From NCBI GenBank assembly GCA_002068015.1, contig MVRV01000130.1, positions 1 through 58,828 of the forward strand: DNA of 58,828 nt, given 5' to 3'. This document shows, piece after piece, positions 49,462-58,550 of this stretch. The first letter of the stretch is position 1; each line of letters starts with the position of its first letter. The translations under genes and the position numbers were made by a program. The notes under the pieces are model-generated. The model was not told where the DNA came from. It ran no database searches and worked only from the letters and a program-made list of their open reading frames with translations. The DNA is from Smithella sp. PtaU1.Bin162. GTDB lineage: Bacteria; Desulfobacterota; Syntrophia; Syntrophales; Smithellaceae.

Positions 49462-50259
49462 ATGGAATTCAAGGAAATTCTTTACAATAAAGAAGGTGGC
49501 ATCGCGACAATAACTATTAACCGGCCGGAAAAATACAATGCCTGTACGCCGGTAACAATATACGAACTTTCACAAGCATTCACGGACGCCTGGGTTGACA
49601 CAAGCGTGGGGGTGGTTGTATTCACCGGAGCCGGCGATAAGGCATTTTGTACCGGCGGTGATCAATCTATCCGGGATAAAGGAGGGTATGGCGGAACTGT
49701 CGCTGCCTTGCCGCTGGAAGTCGGATGGCAACAGGTATCTTTACTTATCCGCACGATTCCCAAACCGGTTATCGCCCGGGTCAACGGTTATGCAATTGGA
49801 GGAGGAAACGTATTTCAGGTTGTCTGCGACCTGTCTATCGCTGCCGAAACAGCAAAATTTGGCCAGGCTGGACCAAGGGTAGGAAGTTTTGATCCCGGTT
49901 ACGGTACGGGAGATCTTGCACGGGCTGTGGGAATGAAGAAAGCCAAAGAAATTTGGTATCTCTGCCGGCTTTACACGGCAAAGGAAGCTTTGGCTATGGG
50001 ACTTATTAATGCATTTGTTACTGCAGACAAGCTAGATGAAGAAGTCGAAAAATGGTGCCGGGAACTACTGGAAAAGAGTCCCACTGCCCTTAAAATGCTC
50101 AAATACTCATTTCATGGTGAAACTGATGGTGTCATCGGGATCTCCAATCTGGGAGTTGGCGGACTCGGTATGTATTATGAAACGGAAGAGTCCCTGGAAG
50201 GCAAAACCGCTTTTATGGAAAAGCGAAAACCCAACTTTTCCAAATATCGGAACAAATAA
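49462..50259 (+). CDS. BadI-like 2-ketocyclohexanecarboxyl-CoA hydrolase (crotonase superfamily)
   Basis: BadI opens the ring of 2-ketocyclohexane-1-carboxyl-CoA to pimeloyl-CoA in anaerobic alicyclic-acid breakdown. The 265-residue protein has the crotonase fold with an oxyanion-hole region (AFCTGGDQS, residues 61-69; AIGGGN), the signature KVGSFD-type VGSFDPGYGTGDLAR and the C-terminal KRKPNFSKYRN. This set is shared by BadI and MenB (naphthoyl-CoA synthase), which are close relatives; the DPGYGT form and the lack of other menaquinone genes nearby favour BadI. GGAGG lies before the ATG. It is 66 bases after the regulator. A ring-cleaving hydrolase fits a Syntrophus-type lifestyle. Confidence 0.7.
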   Translation: MEFKEILYNKEGGIATITINRPEKYNACTPVTIYELSQAFTDAWVDTSVGVVVFTGAGDKAFCTGGDQSIRDKGGYGGTVAALPLEVGWQQVSLLIRTIPKPVIARVNGYAIGGGNVFQVVCDLSIAAETAKFGQAGPRVGSFDPGYGTGDLARAVGMKKAKEIWYLCRLYTAKEALAMGLINAFVTADKLDEEVEKWCRELLEKSPTALKMLKYSFHGETDGVIGISNLGVGGLGMYYETEESLEGKTAFMEKRKPNFSKYRNK

Positions 50260-50300
50260 TTTGCCTCTCCATCACTTATTATTTCTTATTTATTATTTCA

Positions 50301-50329
50301 TTGACACATAATATCCTTCTTGTTATACC
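50301..50329 (+). promoter_or_regulatory. Sigma-70-type promoter upstream of the dehydrogenase gene
   Basis: TTGACA (50,301-50,306), 17 bases, then TATACC (50,324-50,329). The -35 box is perfect and the -10 box matches four of six. It lies 87 bases before the start at 50,416 in a 156-base gap, so the dehydrogenase can be expressed separately from the BadI-like gene. Confidence 0.5.
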
Positions 50330-50415
50330 CGCCTGACTTAAACTGTTACTTATACAAATATTAAAATAGATGTGCAGTTCATAAGTCATTTCTAAATAAT
50401 ATTGGCTGGTGAAAA

Positions 50416-51492
50416 ATGAAAAAACTAAATATTAACCTGTTACCCGGTGACGGAATCGGCATCGAGGTAATAAACGAAAGTTTAATTGTAATTCAGAAAC
50501 TCGAAGAATTACACGGTGGAATTTCTCTAAACCTCCGCCACCTCGATTGGGGATGCGAGTACTATCTCAAGCATGGTACTATGATGCCCGCGGATGGTCT
50601 GAAAATTCTTGCCGATTGTGACGCAATCCTACTCGGATCCATTGGAGCCCCGGGAGTTCCTGATCATGTGTCCGTCCATGGCCTGCTCATGCCTATCCGC
50701 CAGGGCATGGAACAATATATCAATATGCGCCCAATAAAATATCTGGACGGCCTTGATTCTCCCCTGAAAAACGCCCGGCCGGATAATATCGATTTCATGG
50801 TCATCCGGGAAAACTCAGAAGGCGAATACTGCGGTTTCGGTTCCCTTCGCAACGAAGGAACACCGGAGGAGATGGCCGTTCAGGAATCCAGATTCTCGCG
50901 AAAAGGAACATCCAGGGTAATCCGCTATGCTTTCGAATATGCCCGAGAGCATAATCTCAATAACGTCATCAGTGCAACCAAATCTAATGTACTTCATTAT
51001 TCCATGGTATTCTGGGACAAAATATTTAAGGAAGTAGCCGCATCTTATCCCGACATTGAATCAAGAAGCATGTATATTGATGCTCTGGCCGGCATGTTCA
51101 TCCTTAATCCGCAGAAGTTAAAAGTAGTGGTATCAAGCAACCTCTTCGGCGACATCCTTACCGATCTGGGCTCCGCCATGCTGGGAAGCATTGGAATATC
51201 ACCGTCCGCCAATATCAATCCGGAAAGGAAATTCCCCAGCATGTTTGAACCAATCCATGGTTCTGCGCCTGATATTGCAGGAAAAGGTATTGCCAATCCA
51301 CTTGGAGCCCTTTGGTCGATGGTCATGATGCTGCAACATCTCAATCTTCCGGACATGGCAGACATTTTGTTGAAGTCAATTACCAGTGTTGTTGCCGATC
51401 GGAAAGTACGGACGCCTGACATGGGAGGAAAAAACTCGACCCGCGAAGTGGTTCAGGAAATCTGCAAAAGACTCGACGACACAAATCGATAA
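50416..51492 (+). CDS. Tartrate/D-malate-type NAD-dependent beta-decarboxylating dehydrogenase
   Basis: The 358-residue protein belongs to the isocitrate/isopropylmalate dehydrogenase family: LLPGDGIGIEV at the start, the substrate loop region MRPIKYLDGL, VIRENSEGEYCGFG, the Mg-binding Asp in SSNLFGDILTDLGSAM, and the cofactor segment EPIHGSAPDIAGKGIANP. The segment WGCEYYLKHGTMMPADGL and the length match the tartrate dehydrogenase/D-malate dehydrogenase (TtuC/DmlA) branch rather than LeuB. Substrate is not certain. It converges on the M16 gene at 51,513 with a 20-base gap. Confidence 0.78.
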   Translation: MKKLNINLLPGDGIGIEVINESLIVIQKLEELHGGISLNLRHLDWGCEYYLKHGTMMPADGLKILADCDAILLGSIGAPGVPDHVSVHGLLMPIRQGMEQYINMRPIKYLDGLDSPLKNARPDNIDFMVIRENSEGEYCGFGSLRNEGTPEEMAVQESRFSRKGTSRVIRYAFEYAREHNLNNVISATKSNVLHYSMVFWDKIFKEVAASYPDIESRSMYIDALAGMFILNPQKLKVVVSSNLFGDILTDLGSAMLGSIGISPSANINPERKFPSMFEPIHGSAPDIAGKGIANPLGALWSMVMMLQHLNLPDMADILLKSITSVVADRKVRTPDMGGKNSTREVVQEICKRLDDTNR

Positions 51493-51512: not shown

Positions 51513-52787
51513 CTATCGGCAGCTTGGACGCATAATGGCGATTTTATGGTTAGCAAAATAAGTATTAGCAATTCTATAAACTTCTTCTCTTGTCACCTCA
51601 TTGATATGCAGAGGATATGTCTGCGGGAAATTATAATCAATACCATATAATTCATAGAGCGCAGCATCAGCAGCTCTATAGGATAGTTTCTGCATCTCGA
51701 CCAGATAAGCCATCTTGGCATTTGCTTTTCCCTTATCCAAGTCTTCTTCGGCTACAAAATTCTTTTTTAATTTTTCTACATTATCCAAAATAACATCTAT
51801 CACGTCCTCGGTCATTTCAGGCCTTGTTGCAGCAATAATCTCAAAAGAACCCGGCTCAACATTCATGGAATTTATTGACTTAACCGAATAAACAAGTTTT
51901 TTTTCTCTCAGTTCCTTGTGTATTCGACCGCCAGGATAATTCACTCCGGAGAGTATCCCCTCCAAAACCTGAAGGGGATACCTGTCGCGGATATTACTGA
52001 TTCGAATACCTGAAAAACCAATATTGATGAAAGCTATGTTATTTTCATGAATTCTTGTTTGCCTTTCACTCGATAGCAGCGGATCTTCTATCGTGATAAA
52101 AGGATATTGAAATTCATGATCAGATGCAAAATCAGCAAAATATCCCTGCACGACTTTTTGTATTGTTTCAGTATCTATATCACCAAACACGGACATTACC
52201 AGGTTGCTCGGTATCACGTACTTCCTGAAGAACTCAATAACATCAGTAATTGTCATTTCACTCAGCGATTCTTCGCTACCCAGCGGATTCAACCGATATG
52301 GGCTTTTCTGAAAAAATATTTGACGGAAGAAATTACATATCTTCTTTTCCCAGGAATCTTCTTCCCTCTTCAATGCATTTATCGATATCTTTTTTTGGAT
52401 ATCAAGTTCCTTATCATCAAGAAAAGGATTTTTAATTATTTCAGATATAATTTCCAGATTTCTTTCGATTTCCGAACTTAGTGATTCACATTTTATTAAC
52501 AATGTATTCTTCCCTGAAAAAGCAAACAGACTTCCACCGCCTGCTTCTACAATTTCATAGTTTCTGTATGGAGTATAGTGTTTCGAATTTCTCAACATCA
52601 TTCTGGCAAGAAGCTGTGAAACACCATTATTTTTATCTGTCTCCAGAAGAACGCCTCCTAGAAAATAAGCTTGGATTGACACCAGAGGACTATGATGGTC
52701 CTCTTTTAATAGGACCCTCATTCCGTTGGAGAAAGTGCTTTTTTTTATCGGCCTTTCCTCTTTAATGGCTCTTTCTTTCATTTTCAT
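51513..52787 (-). CDS. M16-family peptidase homologue lacking the zinc motif
   Basis: The protein of about 425 residues has the M16 clamshell fold: NGMRVLLKEDHHSPLVSIQAYF at the start, two homologous halves, and SGVNYPGGRIHKELREKKLVYSV carrying the Arg/Tyr pair that the non-catalytic partner of heterodimeric M16 enzymes supplies. Where HxxEH should be, there is QLLAR (Gln58, Ala61, Arg62), so it cannot bind zinc. It is therefore most likely the partner subunit of the enzyme encoded just upstream, as PqqG is of PqqF. Start chosen at 52,787 (MKMKERAIK); 52,781 is also possible. It overlaps the neighbour by about 26 bases, indicating coupling. Last gene of the set. Confidence 0.85.
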   Translation of the reverse strand: MKMKERAIKEERPIKKSTFSNGMRVLLKEDHHSPLVSIQAYFLGGVLLETDKNNGVSQLLARMMLRNSKHYTPYRNYEIVEAGGGSLFAFSGKNTLLIKCESLSSEIERNLEIISEIIKNPFLDDKELDIQKKISINALKREEDSWEKKICNFFRQIFFQKSPYRLNPLGSEESLSEMTITDVIEFFRKYVIPSNLVMSVFGDIDTETIQKVVQGYFADFASDHEFQYPFITIEDPLLSSERQTRIHENNIAFINIGFSGIRISNIRDRYPLQVLEGILSGVNYPGGRIHKELREKKLVYSVKSINSMNVEPGSFEIIAATRPEMTEDVIDVILDNVEKLKKNFVAEEDLDKGKANAKMAYLVEMQKLSYRAADAALYELYGIDYNFPQTYPLHINEVTREEVYRIANTYFANHKIAIMRPSCR

Positions 52788-54033
52788 TTGATTTTGACGG
52801 CGGAGTAATAACTGCCACAGTAAGCTGATCATCGCAAAAATATTTTTCAGCAGCCTCTTGGATTTGAGAAGCTCGCACGCTTTCGATTTTACTTACATAG
52901 TCATCTACAGAGCAGAAATTATGACTAGCTAAGGCGTTATTTCCCAATTCCATAGCCTCATCTCTCAATGTTTGATTATTAAATAGATACTGGCTTATCT
53001 TTTTATTTTTTCCCCTTCTCAAATCTTCATCTTTTACAGGAATTGTTTTCAAACGGGAAAATATTTTCAATATTTTTTCTCTGGCATCATCAAGATAATC
53101 AGTTTTCATCGTTGCGGAAACAGCGAAATATCCGGGAACAAAATAAGGTGTAAAGGAAGATGATGTAATGGAAACAATCCGTTCTTCCTTTGTTGTATTA
53201 AGCTTCGACAGTAATGAATTCCTACCTGCACCGAGAATGGAAGACAAGAGGTCGAGAGGATATTTATAATGATCGGAAAGTTTAACAGTCCTATAACCGA
53301 TAATCATACGTGCAGCTTTAATATTCATTTCTTGAACAATAATCCGTTTATTACATTGTGGAGGTTCATCGGGAAGGTAATCCGATAATTCATTTTTTCT
53401 TTTAAAGGCATCGAAAACTGATTTAATTTTTTGCAGAGCGTCTTCAGCATTAATGTCGCCGACTACTGTAAATATCATGTTATGAGGGATATATTTTTTT
53501 TTATAATATGCATCTATTTCCTCCGGTGTCAGGCTTTTTAATCTATTCTTATAACCGATAACCGGGAATTTAATGGGATGGACTCTATACATATTTTCCA
53601 CAAACAACCGCCAGAGAGCTTTATCAGGATTATCTTCATCCTGTTCTATCTCTCTTTGAACAACTCCCATTTCCCTCTGGAATCTGTCCTCCTGAATAAG
53701 CGAGTTCATCAGACAATCAACAATTAATTCTAAAGCCACACCGAAATGTTCTTTAGAAACGATGATGTAGTAAGAAGTGTGGTCATTAGTCGTATAAGCA
53801 TTGGCGGAGTTTCCAAGCAATTCTAAAGTATTAATGACTTCTTCCTCCGACCTGTTTAACGTCGGACCTTTATAAATGATATGCTCCAGCAGATGAGAAA
53901 TACCCGTTCCCAGATGTTCCCCTTCATGTATTGCTCCCGTCCTTACAAATGCCTGCAATATAATCAAGGGTACACGATGATTTTCTTTAATGATAGCCTT
54001 AAGACCATTATCTAGGTTCAGTTCAAGAATCAT
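52762..54033 (-). CDS. M16-family zinc peptidase, catalytic subunit
   Basis: The protein of about 423 residues has the M16 signature HLLEH (His47, Glu50, His51 from the start at 54,033) within GTGISHLLEHIIYKG, the distal Glu region VVQREIEQDEDNPD, and a second half without HxxEH. It does not carry the Arg/Tyr pair in full; that is present in the partner gene 51,513-52,787. A two-gene arrangement of a catalytic and a non-catalytic M16 protein is the one of PqqF/PqqG, which trims the PQQ precursor. I start at MILELNLDNGLKAII by family alignment; the frame is open to a TTG at 54,081, and no strong ribosome binding site supports either. Confidence 0.85.
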   Translation of the reverse strand: MILELNLDNGLKAIIKENHRVPLIILQAFVRTGAIHEGEHLGTGISHLLEHIIYKGPTLNRSEEEVINTLELLGNSANAYTTNDHTSYYIIVSKEHFGVALELIVDCLMNSLIQEDRFQREMGVVQREIEQDEDNPDKALWRLFVENMYRVHPIKFPVIGYKNRLKSLTPEEIDAYYKKKYIPHNMIFTVVGDINAEDALQKIKSVFDAFKRKNELSDYLPDEPPQCNKRIIVQEMNIKAARMIIGYRTVKLSDHYKYPLDLLSSILGAGRNSLLSKLNTTKEERIVSITSSSFTPYFVPGYFAVSATMKTDYLDDAREKILKIFSRLKTIPVKDEDLRRGKNKKISQYLFNNQTLRDEAMELGNNALASHNFCSVDDYVSKIESVRASQIQEAAEKYFCDDQLTVAVITPPSKSNENERKSH

Positions 54034-54093
54034 ACATAATAGATGAACGACAACGTCTAGACCTAAACTTTCAGTGAACAAAAGTGCTCTAAC

Positions 54094-54702
54094 TCATATA
54101 TTTTCAGCTAAAGGATTCAGAGTTCCAAGACGGAGGACTTTCGGCTCTCCTGTAACATCGAATATGGTTGAAGCCACCCCGATTTCACATTTTCCGCCAT
54201 CCAGAATAAGATCAACATCCAATTTTACATCATCGGCGGATATAGCGGCTTCCTCTCCGGATATATTAACAGAAGTTATAGCCAGCGGCACACCCAGTTC
54301 CTTAAGTATTGCCTGATTTACCGGATGTTCAGATATTCTTATGCCAACAGTCTTTAATCCGGCAGATACTATATCTGAAACAGCATCACTCTTTTCAAAT
54401 ATCATAACAAGTGGTCCGGGCCAATATTTTTCCATATACTTTTCAGCTTTCGGAGTTATATTTTTCACAAGAGTTTTAATTTGTGATTTATCTGCAACAA
54501 ACACATTAAAAGGTTTATTGTGTGGTCTTTTTTTTATTTCATAAGCTTTATTTACTGCAACTTCATCACCAGCCACAGCCATAAGACCATAAACAGTATC
54601 AAAAGGACATACGACTAATCCGCTGTTTTTTAACACATTCACTGCTTCTTTAATAATCTCCGGTTCTGGCGCCTTTGTATTAATTTTTAACTTTCTGGAC
54701 AT
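54094..54702 (-). CDS. Sua5/YrdC-family protein (canonical motifs)
   Basis: Sua5/YrdC enzymes make threonylcarbamoyl-AMP from threonine, bicarbonate and ATP for tRNA t6A37 modification. This 202-residue protein keeps the expected motifs: PFDTVYGL near residue 33, the KxR element in YEIKKRPHNKPF, and SxN in TSVNISG. AAGGAGGGG lies before the ATG. It has the short YrdC form with no Sua5 C-terminal domain. Its place in this operon, next to a divergent copy, suggests a role beyond tRNA modification, or simply a housekeeping gene within the unit. Confidence 0.85.
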   Translation of the reverse strand: MSRKLKINTKAPEPEIIKEAVNVLKNSGLVVCPFDTVYGLMAVAGDEVAVNKAYEIKKRPHNKPFNVFVADKSQIKTLVKNITPKAEKYMEKYWPGPLVMIFEKSDAVSDIVSAGLKTVGIRISEHPVNQAILKELGVPLAITSVNISGEEAAISADDVKLDVDLILDGGKCEIGVASTIFDVTGEPKVLRLGTLNPLAENI

Positions 54703-54827: not shown

Positions 54828-55460
54828 TCATTTTTCACTGTTACTGTATTTTTGAATCAATTCCGTTATTTTCCTGGCAGGAACAATGCCTTCCCGAATA
54901 ATCTTAATGTCATCGGATGACATATCAAGAATTGTTCCACTTCCTTCTTTATATTTACATGATCCATAATCCAAAGCTATATCGACTGCATTTTCACCGA
55001 ATTCCTTAGCAGATTCAAAAGTTCTACTCAGTTGTCCTCCTGACTTTGCTGCCCTAGTAAATGCCAAAGGAATTTTTATAACATTATAGATAGCAGCCAC
55101 AACCGGGTTTTCGTTCCAGGAAACTCCCAAAGAGGAAAGTCCCGGTGCCAGCAGATCCAATGTATTTTGTTTTTTTCGCAAGATCAAAACCATCGGCGCC
55201 GGTAAAATTTCTTTTATAATCTTTCTGGAAAGTATTGAGAGATCTGCATATTTATCGATGTCATCCGGGTGAATAAAAGCCTGAACCGGATAATCCTCTG
55301 GAACATCGATAATTTTTCTCATTTTTTTTAAAGATAGTTCCTGCATGGAACTGCATACCAAGGCATAAGCAACATCGGAAGGCAAAAGAGCAACAGCTCC
55401 CTTTTCTATTGCCTGTGCTACTTTAATAATATTTGATGGTGAAGACTTCAAAATTTCCAT
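54828..55460 (-). CDS. Divergent YrdC-like protein with altered active-site motifs
   Basis: The 210-residue protein has the YrdC fold (start ALLPSDVAYALVCS; end region LDYGSCKYKEGSGTILDMSSDDIKIIREG) but the active-site motifs are changed: PSDVAYAL instead of PTDTVYGL, KKMRKIIDVPEDYPVQAFI instead of a KxRP...KPL segment, and FTRAAKSGG instead of TSANxSG. The ATP- or carbamate-handling is therefore probably altered or lost. It lies between an isopropylmalate-synthase-like gene and a canonical YrdC gene, 26 bases from the former. It may be a specialised carbamoyl-AMP-type enzyme or a regulatory partner; no function is established. Confidence 0.75.
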   Translation of the reverse strand: MEILKSSPSNIIKVAQAIEKGAVALLPSDVAYALVCSSMQELSLKKMRKIIDVPEDYPVQAFIHPDDIDKYADLSILSRKIIKEILPAPMVLILRKKQNTLDLLAPGLSSLGVSWNENPVVAAIYNVIKIPLAFTRAAKSGGQLSRTFESAKEFGENAVDIALDYGSCKYKEGSGTILDMSSDDIKIIREGIVPARKITELIQKYSNSEK

Positions 55461-55485: not shown

Positions 55486-56685
55486 TTAAATCGATTTGGT
55501 TATGACACTTTCCGCCACTTCTTTTAATTTAATATCAGTAATTTTTTCTTTAGTATTTCCCAATTTCTTTATTATTTCTAAAATTTCTTTTAACTGACTT
55601 TCTTCAGGATACATACCCATTTTATTCAAAATAAATCTTATTCCATGGGATCCCGTGTGTTTACCAATTATAATTTCCCTTTTATGCCCAACCAACTCTG
55701 GTGTTAATGGCTCATAAGTTGCCATATGCTCAAGCACACCATGAACATGAATTCCTGACTCATGAGCAAAGGCATTAGCACCCACAATCGGTTTATTCGG
55801 TGGCACCGGCATTCTCGAATATTCAGCAACAAGCTCTGACAGAGGAACTAATTGACGGAACTCTCTTATTGTCTTGATTCCGTATAAGATTAATAAGCTT
55901 GCAGATACTTCATCCAATCTTGCATTACCTGCTCTATCACCTAAACCATTGACCGTAACCTGGACCTGTTCCGCGCCAGCCTCTATTCCCGCCAATGAAT
56001 TAGCCACAGACATACCGAAATCATTATGGCAATGAACACTCACCGGTACTTTAGCTATAGTTTTAATTTCACTTATCAGCTGATACATTGCTCTGGGAGT
56101 CATTACACCCACGGTATCATTCACGCTGATAATAGAAGCGCCGGCATTCTGGACTTCTGAATAGAACTCCTTTAAATATTCCGGAGAACTTCGAGTCGCA
56201 TCTTCGGCTGAAAACTCTACCTTAAGTTTATTTTCCAAAGCATACTTTGTTGATGCTATAGCCCTCTTTATTACTTCATCACCCGTCATCTTTAACTTAT
56301 ACTTCATATGCAGGTTCGAAGTTGCAATAAATAAATGGACATAATCCACTTTACATTTAATTGCCGCATCTATATCTTCTTCCAAAGCTCTAGCTACCCC
56401 CGCAATTTTCGCATGAAGTCCCGCATCCGTGATCATTTTGATTGCAGTAAGTTCATCACTGGAAACTATCGGGAAACCCGCCTCAATAATATCCACTCCA
56501 ATGTCGTCTAGCCTCTGAGCAATTCTCATTTTTTCTTCAGGTGAAAAATAAACCCCCGGGGTTTGCTCACCATCCCGCAGAGTCGTATCTAATATTTGGA
56601 CATTTCCAGGCAATCTCAGATATTTCGCTGTCTCTTTAATATAAGAATGTACTAATTCTTCCGACATACTAATATCTTTTATCAT
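55486..56685 (-). CDS. Homocitrate/isopropylmalate-synthase-family enzyme (DRE-TIM, short form)
   Basis: The 399-residue protein is a DRE-TIM metallolyase-family acyltransferase: the DTTLRDGEQ motif (residues 33-41), SVNDTVGVMTP, the metal-binding HCHNDFGMSVANSL, GLGDRAGNARLDEV, and AHESGIHVHGVLE. The long LeuA allosteric domain is missing. The family includes homocitrate synthase (NifV/AksA), citramalate and isopropylmalate synthases, and Re-citrate synthases of anaerobes, and I cannot choose among them. It lies 119 bases after the repeat peptide gene and 25 bases before the divergent YrdC gene, so it may act on a small-molecule donor used in peptide modification, which is inference. Confidence 0.75.
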   Translation of the reverse strand: MIKDISMSEELVHSYIKETAKYLRLPGNVQILDTTLRDGEQTPGVYFSPEEKMRIAQRLDDIGVDIIEAGFPIVSSDELTAIKMITDAGLHAKIAGVARALEEDIDAAIKCKVDYVHLFIATSNLHMKYKLKMTGDEVIKRAIASTKYALENKLKVEFSAEDATRSSPEYLKEFYSEVQNAGASIISVNDTVGVMTPRAMYQLISEIKTIAKVPVSVHCHNDFGMSVANSLAGIEAGAEQVQVTVNGLGDRAGNARLDEVSASLLILYGIKTIREFRQLVPLSELVAEYSRMPVPPNKPIVGANAFAHESGIHVHGVLEHMATYEPLTPELVGHKREIIIGKHTGSHGIRFILNKMGMYPEESQLKEILEIIKKLGNTKEKITDIKLKEVAESVITKSI

Positions 56686-56804: not shown

Positions 56805-57053
56805 TTATGGGGTGACACCAATTCCACCACAACCATCATTCGTCGCAGGGGTAACACCGATTCCACCGCAACCATCATTCGTCGCAGGAGTAACACCGAT
56901 TCCACCGGAGCCATCATTGGTTGCAGGGGTAACACCGATTCCACCGCAACCGTCATTCGTCGCAGGAGTGACACCGATTCCACCGGAGCCATCATTGGTT
57001 GCAGTTTGAATTACATTTTCGATCTCTATATCTCTAATTTCATACTCTCCCAT
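56805..57053 (-). CDS. Putative multi-core RiPP precursor: short leader plus five 13-residue repeats
   Basis: The 82-residue peptide starts with an acidic 17-residue leader (MGEYEIRDIEIENVIQT) and then consists of five perfect-register copies of ATNDGxGGIGVTP, with x being Ser in repeats 1 and 3 and Cys in repeats 2, 4 and 5. The last repeat ends the protein. AAGGAGG lies seven bases before the ATG, a very strong ribosome binding site. It stands 81 bases after a radical SAM/SPASM gene, the normal arrangement of peptide-modifying radical SAM systems. I interpret it as a precursor with several identical product units, released by proteolysis. A TATAAT at 57,120-57,125 could give it its own promoter, but no -35 box is visible. 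No homologous family is known to me. Confidence 0.8.
   Translation of the reverse strand: MGEYEIRDIEIENVIQTATNDGSGGIGVTPATNDGCGGIGVTPATNDGSGGIGVTPATNDGCGGIGVTPATNDGCGGIGVTP
56808..57002 (-). repeat. Five 39-bp tandem repeats encoding the peptide cores
   Basis: Five units of exactly 39 bases without spacers. Two sequence classes are visible: the Ser class (units 1 and 3, 56,964-57,002 and 56,886-56,924; codons GCA-ACC, GGC-TCC, ACT-CCT) and the Cys class (units 2, 4 and 5; codons GCG-ACG, GGT-TGC, ACC-CCT/CCA). Units 1-2 and 3-4 thus form a duplicated 78-base pair, and unit 5 is an extra Cys unit. The protein sequence is constant apart from Ser/Cys. Confidence 0.95.
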
Positions 57054-57134: not shown

Positions 57135-58550
57135 TTATGATTCGCTGAGAATTTTTCTTGTTATTCCTCTATATATTTCACAAAATCTTTCATCCGGTTG
57201 ATAAATATCATTAAATTTATATTCCGAATGCCCAAGACATTCTCCCTGGCAAACACCCTCCAGGGCACAACCTCTACAATGATTAACATTCATATATGTT
57301 CTCATCACTAAACTTCGATAGACGTCAGATTTCAGCATTTTATCAAATTCGTCGATATGGCCAAGATGAAGTGACATTGCCCTGCAGGGGAAAATATCAC
57401 CTGACGGTTCTACTGCAAGTAACATCCCTGTTCCAGGACATGAATTATGGTCCTCATTGACAGCATCCCAAGGCGATATTTGGTAGCTTTTGGAAAAAAG
57501 GAGTCTTCTTAATGGATTATGCCAATAACCTGCAATATTCATTCTCTGATCTACTGCATAGCGATAAAGAGAATAGAATTTATTCACTATCTCTTCTGTA
57601 GTGTGTGTCCTTTGATTCATTAAATACTCATTACCAAAAGCCAACAGCAAAATAAGTGTCTTGATTCCTTTGGATTTGGTATAATCAGTCATCCGATTAT
57701 CGAAATGATCGAAATTCAGACTGCTAATGACAGAAGAAGTAAAAACCTCTACTCCATGTTTCAGCATCAAATCTATACCCTTCTCTATCGCTTTGAATGT
57801 ATTTTCCCCTTTGGTTGTAATCCTGTTCACATCATTCGTTTCAGCTAAACCGTCAATACTGATATAAACTTTTCCCTTATATTTGCTGAAGAGTTGAGCA
57901 CATTCTTCGGTAATTAATGAACCATTTGTTGTCATATCCCAACGAATATAGAGACCATGCTCTTCCCCATTACCAAAATGTTCCATCACACGTTTTATTA
58001 CTCTCCAGTTAATTAGAGGTTCACGACCAAAAAATTTAATTATTAGACGTTTCTTTCCATTAGCTTTTAGAACATCAATAACCGTCTGAATTGTTTTACT
58101 GGCCATTTCAAAGCTCATCAATTTTTCCGTGTAATTCTTTAGTTCTAATCTTCTTTTCGAACCATTATCCGACCAATCCGCAAAACAATATTTACAGTTG
58201 AAATTACAGGATTCAGCTATGCTCAATTGCAGCGCACCGATATAATATCCTGTAGTCAGCTTATTTTCTCTCTGTGCAAGCTTCTCATTAAAAAAAGTCC
58301 TCTCATCATCTCCCAGTGGAACTAAATAATGAAGCTTTGTAAGCTCATTTATTGTTTTGCCAATACCATTTCCAGATTGTTCCCGGAATAATATGGCAGG
58401 ACTTATTGGATTTTTGAATTTATTTAAGAGTTCTAAAATATTTTGATTGATTTGTTTCAGATTACCATAAAGGGAATGATAAACTACATATCCCCCTTTT
58501 GCCCTTGGAATGATTTGCAAATAGTCTGATTGTTTTAATTTCGCTTCCAT
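57135..58550 (-). CDS. Radical SAM/SPASM peptide-modifying enzyme with PqqD-like N-terminal domain
   Basis: The 471-residue protein has an N-terminal region of about 90 residues (GGYVVYHSLYGNL, NELTKLHYLVPLGDDE) that resembles the PqqD-type leader-binding domain (RRE), the radical SAM core with CxxxCxxC as CNFNCKYC (Cys115, Cys119, Cys122), and a SPASM domain whose cysteines fit the two-auxiliary-cluster pattern (Cys371, 389, 425, 428, 434, 438, 457). FGREPL stands where FGGEPL is usual. Such enzymes form C-C, C-S or other crosslinks on peptides. The likely substrate is the repeat peptide encoded next. GGGGGG precedes the ATG. No promoter can be read reliably in the 278 AT-rich bases upstream. 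Confidence 0.9.
   Translation of the reverse strand: MEAKLKQSDYLQIIPRAKGGYVVYHSLYGNLKQINQNILELLNKFKNPISPAILFREQSGNGIGKTINELTKLHYLVPLGDDERTFFNEKLAQRENKLTTGYYIGALQLSIAESCNFNCKYCFADWSDNGSKRRLELKNYTEKLMSFEMASKTIQTVIDVLKANGKKRLIIKFFGREPLINWRVIKRVMEHFGNGEEHGLYIRWDMTTNGSLITEECAQLFSKYKGKVYISIDGLAETNDVNRITTKGENTFKAIEKGIDLMLKHGVEVFTSSVISSLNFDHFDNRMTDYTKSKGIKTLILLLAFGNEYLMNQRTHTTEEIVNKFYSLYRYAVDQRMNIAGYWHNPLRRLLFSKSYQISPWDAVNEDHNSCPGTGMLLAVEPSGDIFPCRAMSLHLGHIDEFDKMLKSDVYRSLVMRTYMNVNHCRGCALEGVCQGECLGHSEYKFNDIYQPDERFCEIYRGITRKILSES

Follow-up and report, generated by a model that had tools for sequence, protein, structure and literature searches.

A five-unit repeat peptide and an adjoining GYW-type radical SAM/SPASM maturase in Smithella sp. 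PtaU1.Bin162: a predicted cyclopropyl-synthase RiPP cluster of a new precursor type

Organization of the locus

The window, i.e., the whole stretch of 58,828 nucleotides of contig MVRV01000130.1 that was analysed, contains near its end a gene for an 82-residue precursor peptide, built up from a short leader followed by five 13-residue units which make up the C-terminal four fifths of the polypeptide (Table 1). The open reading frame possesses a strong ribosome site, AAGGAGGAAAATAAATG, and its stop codon falls exactly at a unit boundary (GVTP-stop). The gene of a radical SAM/SPASM enzyme occurs just upstream on the same strand, and five other genes of that strand, encoding a LeuA-like protein, two YrdC/Sua5-like proteins and two M16 peptidase subunits, are located downstream. 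The tartrate-dehydrogenase-like and BadI/MenB-like genes that follow (positions 49462-51492) occupy the opposite strand and were taken as unrelated. Between the enzyme gene and the end of the contig, which is also that of the window, 278 nt remain on the upstream side, and a transporter or a second maturase could thus be missing from view.

Table 1. Positions in the window of the precursor gene, the maturase gene, their predicted functional elements and the neighbouring genes. Units and per-unit positions are listed from the N- to the C-terminus.
Feature	Position	Strand	Basis
Precursor peptide gene, 82 aa, MGEYEIRDIEIENVIQT-(ATNDGxGGIGVTP)x5	56805..57053	(-)	ORF and ribosome site; homologue L199:1512-1598 (-)
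Leader MGEYEIRDIEIENVIQT, 17 aa	57003..57053	(-)	IRDIEIE aligns with IKDLEIE of L199
Five 13-residue core units	56808..57002	(-)	Unit analysis and tandem repeats
Units 1 to 5	56964-57002; 56925-56963; 56886-56924; 56847-56885; 56808-56846	(-)	
Variable Ser/Cys codon, units 1 to 5	56985..56987 TCC; 56946-56948 TGC; 56907-56909 TCC; 56868-56870 TGC; 56829-56831 TGT	(-)	
Predicted target Ile, units 1 to 5	56976..56978; 56937-56939; 56898-56900; 56859-56861; 56820-56822	(-)	Ile-Gly common to TigB-type and other relatives
Radical SAM/SPASM peptide maturase, 471 aa, cyclopropyl-synthase family	57135..58550	(-)	TigE (8vpo) best by sequence and fold; GYW clade
Radical SAM motif CNFNCKYC (C115, C119, C122)	58185..58208	(-)	Alignment
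GYW motif G341-Y342-W343	57522..57530	(-)	Aligned with GYWH of 8vpo
LeuA/homocitrate-synthase-like, extra copy, possible tailoring enzyme	55486..56685	(-)	Profile search
Divergent YrdC/Sua5-like, below family cut-off	54828..55460	(-)	Profile search
Extra Sua5 (threonylcarbamoyl-AMP synthase family)	54094..54702	(-)	Profile search
M16 peptidase subunit, extra copy, candidate excision protease	52762..54081	(-)	Profile search
M16 peptidase subunit, second of pair	51513..52832	(-)	Profile search

Separate copies of the downstream genes occur elsewhere in the genome (LeuA on C121, Sua5 on C67 and C124, and an M16 pair on C184), and in a comparison with 19 other genomes of the family, the majority contain the usual set only of LeuA, Sua5 and M16 genes. 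The enzyme was absent at E <= 1e-30 from the 197 genomes searched, its own genome excepted, and the phylum sample yielded homologues at 25-28% only. Owing to these separate copies and to the absence of the maturase from the relatives searched, the stretch is accessory. Judging from strand, spacing and co-absence, the precursor gene, the enzyme gene and their neighbours would form a single operon and, with respect to their position, strand and shared absence in relatives, the M16, LeuA-like and YrdC-like genes may participate in the same pathway. The divergent YrdC-like protein is devoid of the KRPxxKP stretch present in the neighbouring Sua5 and may therefore have changed function.

The repeat array and its one-unit homologue

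The array comprises 195 nt, distributed among five exact 39-nt units, at precisely the coordinates assigned to it in a previous reading of the letters alone (the sequence-only reading). The units, ATNDGSGGIGVTP, ATNDGCGGIGVTP, ATNDGSGGIGVTP, ATNDGCGGIGVTP and ATNDGCGGIGVTP in order, share the consensus ATNDGxGGIGVTP, in which x successively corresponds to Ser, Cys, Ser, Cys and Cys; unit coordinates and translation confirm that they are in frame and alike except at this position. The alternation of Ser and Cys, as previously claimed, holds for units 1-4 but not for the whole array, the order of which ends Cys-Cys. Similarly, the two codon classes said to follow the Ser/Cys state are real at codons 1, 2, 5 and 12, which fully track it, but strict tracking is restricted to these four, since codons 4, 9, 11 and 13 do not follow. 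Tandem Repeats Finder gives a score of 287 for a 39-nt period and a better score of 324 for a 78-nt period, which fits the duplicated two-unit block proposed earlier, and a single nucleotide difference separates unit 1 from unit 3, and unit 2 from unit 4, vs seven between units 1 and 2. Units 1-2 and 3-4 are a recently copied pair, the direction being either way, and unit 5 is a Cys-type unit that diverged separately and further than the others.

Among the units, ten nucleotide columns vary: one corresponds to the Ser/Cys change itself (TCC to TGC/TGT), and the nine others are silent differences at third codon positions. Ten randomly placed substitutions would include a mean of 7.1 non-silent ones, compared to the one observed, and the probability of obtaining at most one is about 5e-5. 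In units 1-4, the coding frame displays one variable amino-acid column vs 2-9 in the five other frames. A plain minisatellite located in or beside a gene, without any peptide function, would account for tandem 39/78-nt repeats and for their recent duplication, but the predominance of silent changes, the coding frame being the least variable one, the proximity of a gene encoding a peptide-modifying enzyme, and the conservation of both leader and unit in a distant genome with a single copy, where no repeat exists, render such an origin extremely improbable. The array is thus viewed as encoding a selected peptide, as the sequence-only reading had proposed.

This distant genome, which encodes a 53% homologue of the enzyme (L089), contains on another contig (L199) than its two L089 synthases the gene of a 29-residue precursor, MIKDLEIEVLDDVNASVVNDGSGGIGVAP, for which the second of the in-frame GTG codons was chosen as start, AAGGAGG being normally spaced from it. 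The peptide exhibits the same leader pattern (I-K/R-D-L/I-E-I-E) followed by one unit, VVNDGSGGIGVAP, with Ser at the variable place. The number of copies consequently differs, five vs one, with the unit kept and Ser alone being possible; homologous repeats that vary freely or are frame-broken, which would have pointed to a minisatellite, did not occur. The L089 and L199 contigs belong to a MAG labelled 'Acetobacteraceae', a lineage label that looks doubtful, and the taxon should not be leaned on. A second genome match to the precursor, DnaJ of Clostridium sp. KNHs214, was discarded as a Gly-rich chance similarity; the precursor query gave a single chance-like match among plasmids, and the viral contigs contained no match to the core pattern.

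With respect to the Ser/Cys variation, the Ser residue of the one-unit relative and the lack of Cys in the family's other repeat precursors indicate that Cys is not the shared target, in agreement with one of the two earlier suggestions, namely that another residue is modified. The simplest account consists of a single TCC-to-TGC change, or the reverse, tolerated and spread via duplication; if the units are cut apart, it would give at most two congeners. Alternatively, Ser and Cys units could be deliberately distinct substrates leading to two functional products in a two-component manner, a reading compatible with the explanation preferred below and suggested by the duplication of the S-C pair as a block and by the occurrence of both types in several copies with the remainder unchanged. 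This remains doubtful, however, because the single-unit homologue has Ser only, the order ends C-C, and selection is not needed to account for the pattern, for which one TCC/TGC change followed by duplication is sufficient.

Family and predicted fold of the radical SAM/SPASM enzyme

The three cysteines of the CX3CX2C radical SAM motif, together with the SPASM residues C371, C389, C425, C428, C434 and C438, are invariant across 12 homologues. Among solved structures, the best match by sequence is 8vpo, 'TigE from Paramaledivibacter caminithermalis' (2.9e-68), followed by 5wgg (2.9e-22). The AlphaFold model of the enzyme (mean pLDDT 84.8) matches 8vpo with a TM of 0.88/0.92, an rmsd of 2.5 and an E of 2.1e-35, compared to 3.4e-19 for the next match, and is far closer to it than to 5wgg, the thioether-forming CteB. 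The N-terminal part of the model, organized as strand-strand-strand-helix-helix-helix, looks by inspection like a PqqD-type leader-binding domain.

All NCBIfam matches of the enzyme are sub-threshold. The best profile, PapB (NF047865), corresponds to ranthipeptide maturases that also associate radical SAM and SPASM, and this match, along with the occurrence of Cys near Asp in three of the five units, would be expected from a ranthipeptide or sactipeptide in which a thioether links Cys to a nearby residue, e.g., the Asp of NDG, the Ser units being unmodified or acting as spacers. Such a product is nevertheless quite improbable: the score of 130 bits lies far under the PapB cut-off of 340, Cys is missing from two of the five units (Ser in units 1 and 3), from the one-unit homologue and from the precursors of the related loci L090, L092 and L093, and the nearest structure is TigE and not CteB. 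GrrM/OscB and other cyclophane RiPPs were also rejected, taking into account the absence of Trp, Tyr, Phe and His from the units and a score of 57 bits with TIGR04261 (GrrM/OscB), for a cut-off of 310.

The window enzyme also carries a Gly-Tyr-Trp (GYW) motif, which Lien et al. reportedly described in 2024 for TigE, its Tyr being a ligand of auxiliary cluster I; the G341-Y342-W343 stretch of the window enzyme aligns with GYWH of 8vpo. To our knowledge, cyclopropyl synthases alone possess this motif, which TigE requires, and TvgB and TigE are the only characterised enzymes of this kind that we know of. Homologues were searched for in about 85,000 genomes and, among the matches listed, identities with the window enzyme amount to 53% for L089, 41% for L090, 30-35% for L091-L093 and about 27% for the Streptomyces group; plasmids, phages and viral contigs contain distant homologues only. 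A tree of 47 rows, consisting of 23 GYW enzymes and 24 non-GYW relatives, with TvgB left out, gathers all 23 GYW enzymes, including that of the window, in a single clade (support 100/99), with the 24 others outside. Within this clade, the window enzyme and L089 are sisters (100/99), L090 probably groups with them (93/88), and this set stands beside a clade comprising the enzymes of L092 and L093 and the Streptomyces group. By sequence, predicted fold and phylogeny, the enzyme groups with the cyclopropyl synthases. As the branch of window, L089 and L090 is distinct from that of TigE, this subclade, the activity of which is predicted from sequence, may no longer have quite the same chemistry.

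Predicted target, related systems and possible fate of the peptide

The precursors found in relatives have in common an Ile followed by a Gly in the repeats adjoining the maturase. L090 (Bacteroidales) encodes five PAIGVG units joined by TI (PAIGVGTI), the L092 precursor (Planctomycetes) ends in GGTIGGTIGGTIR (GGTI), and that of L093 (Maledivibacter) consists of GTIGSVS repeats, all of them with a core devoid of Cys. The L093 precursor reaches 131 bits with NF047709 (TigB), named by NCBI a 'methyl-cyclopropylglycine-containing RiPP'. In the TVGG repeats, each TvgB event removes 2 Da and converts a Val into cyclopropylglycine, an assignment established with MS and NMR data and with a synthetic standard (PMC9062424). 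In the window unit, Ile9 occurs directly before Gly (GG-Ile-Gly-Val) and Val11 before Thr, so that the Val or Ile before Gly characteristic of a precursor neighbouring a cyclopropyl synthase is found in the five GGIGV units. Because a beta-branched residue directly before Gly is common to the Tvg and Tig systems and to the window, Ile9 is the predicted target; Ile belonged to the candidates of the sequence-only reading and is now singled out by the enzyme family. By analogy, the best prediction is a conversion of Ile9 to methyl-cyclopropylglycine, once per unit and up to five times per precursor, and it is quite likely that the locus is a RiPP cluster in which the adjoining enzyme of the cyclopropyl-synthase family acts on the Ile of each unit.

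Val and Thr, which also occur in the unit, could be targets instead. The same fold might catalyse another modification at a Gly-flanked beta-branched residue, e.g., epimerisation, desaturation, or a cross-link of the ether or C-C type on Ile, Val or Thr. The conserved Ile-Gly and the Val near Gly in repeat cores, the separation of the window subclade from the TigE clade, and the wide variety of radical SAM/SPASM reactions are all consistent with such an event, which is however unlikely given the retention of GYW, a motif which, as far as we know, is found exclusively in cyclopropyl synthases and is needed by TigE.

In the preferred cyclopropyl reading, the leader would be bound by the N-terminal domain of the enzyme, which would act once per unit on GG-Ile-Gly-Val by joining Ile side-chain carbons into methyl-cyclopropylglycine. 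A peptidase would release the units after modification, most plausibly the clustered M16 pair, a choice in keeping with the leader cleavage that such pairs carry out in some class III lanthipeptides (PMC10885120). A single gene would thus give a small modified peptide in multiple copies, some with Ser and some with Cys, a single-gene, many-product logic that has been proposed for TVG as well (PMC9062424). Tailoring of this product may be the role of the additional LeuA-like and YrdC-like enzymes. A more elaborate scheme, conceivable but rather speculative, is a new branch of cyclopropyl RiPPs in which a dedicated M16 pair excises the 13-residue units as small molecules, in Ser and Cys congeners, and in which enzymes of primary-metabolism origin, LeuA-like for acyl condensation and YrdC-like for carbamoyl transfer, build on them.

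The TIG pathway (TigB/TigE) resembles the window in the enzyme fold, the full-length similarity and the GYW motif, and in a short leader followed by tandem Ile-Gly units, encoded by an adjacent precursor gene. It differs by units of 7 residues (GTIGSVS) vs 13, and the window differs in turn by its Ser/Cys variation, its other accessory genes and its one visible synthase gene vs two in L093. In front of the predicted target, the window has Gly, vs Thr in both TIGSVS and TVGG. The window precursor is recognised by none of the NCBIfam and Pfam profiles, contains neither TIGSVS nor TVGG repeats, and gives no match with NF047709; this missing match and the Gly before Ile argue for a separate precursor type. 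The TVG pathway (TvgA/TvgB, Halomonas anticariensis; PMC9062424) shares with the window a many-unit precursor and a beta-branched residue before Gly, but Val is converted into cyclopropylglycine, whereas Ile is the predicted target in the window, and its accessory genes encode a dioxygenase and peptidase/transporters instead of the M16 pair, LeuA-like and YrdC-like proteins.

The locus is thus predicted to encode a cyclopropyl-synthase RiPP whose precursor represents a new type and whose neighbouring genes are unusual, the exact chemistry being itself a prediction. The window/L089 subclade offers natural one-unit and five-unit substrates with one leader pattern, along with a natural Ser/Cys series, which makes processivity, leader use and sequence tolerance directly testable. 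If the extra paralogues from primary metabolism belong to the pathway, they would show the fate of the peptide after cyclopropanation, a point left open for tvg.

The GYW enzymes of Streptomyces (L007, L094-L106, L111) belong to the same clade as the window enzyme but are preceded, unlike the latter, by a conserved peptide of ~54 residues without repeats, TASSRPC[GA]FVSPDKGNAPTITP (L007 3546-3710, L094 5557-5721, and others). These loci are candidates for a non-repeat cyclopropyl-synthase cluster. The L007 maturase is followed by genes for a carbamoyltransferase, PhyH and MFS; compared with the YrdC-like genes of the window, this carbamoyltransferase gives a hint, and no more, of a carbamoyl chemistry recurring with the enzyme family.

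Two GYW maturases occur in tandem in L089 (1-2010, the first one cut by the contig end), L092 (535-3433) and L093 (4607-7416), vs one in the window, and a partner of the window enzyme could lie past the contig end. Genes for B12-binding radical SAM proteins adjoin the precursor or the GYW maturase in three lineages (L199 4-1395 (-); L090 2580-3866; L091 7366-8724 and 9079-10530), which suggests a further tailoring step, e.g., a methylation; in the L092 genome, the region around a B12 radical SAM gene contains neither a GYW enzyme nor a repeat. Viral contigs (L008, L026-L028, L031, L032, L034, L037, L041-L047, L053) associate a distant radical SAM gene with Cys-rich repeat proteins of the CTCNCNY type, possibly a phage peptide-modification system. 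Close to their maturase, Desulfobacterales relatives without GYW encode peptides with PCGG(D/G/E) repeats (L108 247-534, L109 3473-3748), and a 105-residue Gly-rich peptide (L003 3035-3352) occurs after a non-GYW relative fused behind other domains.
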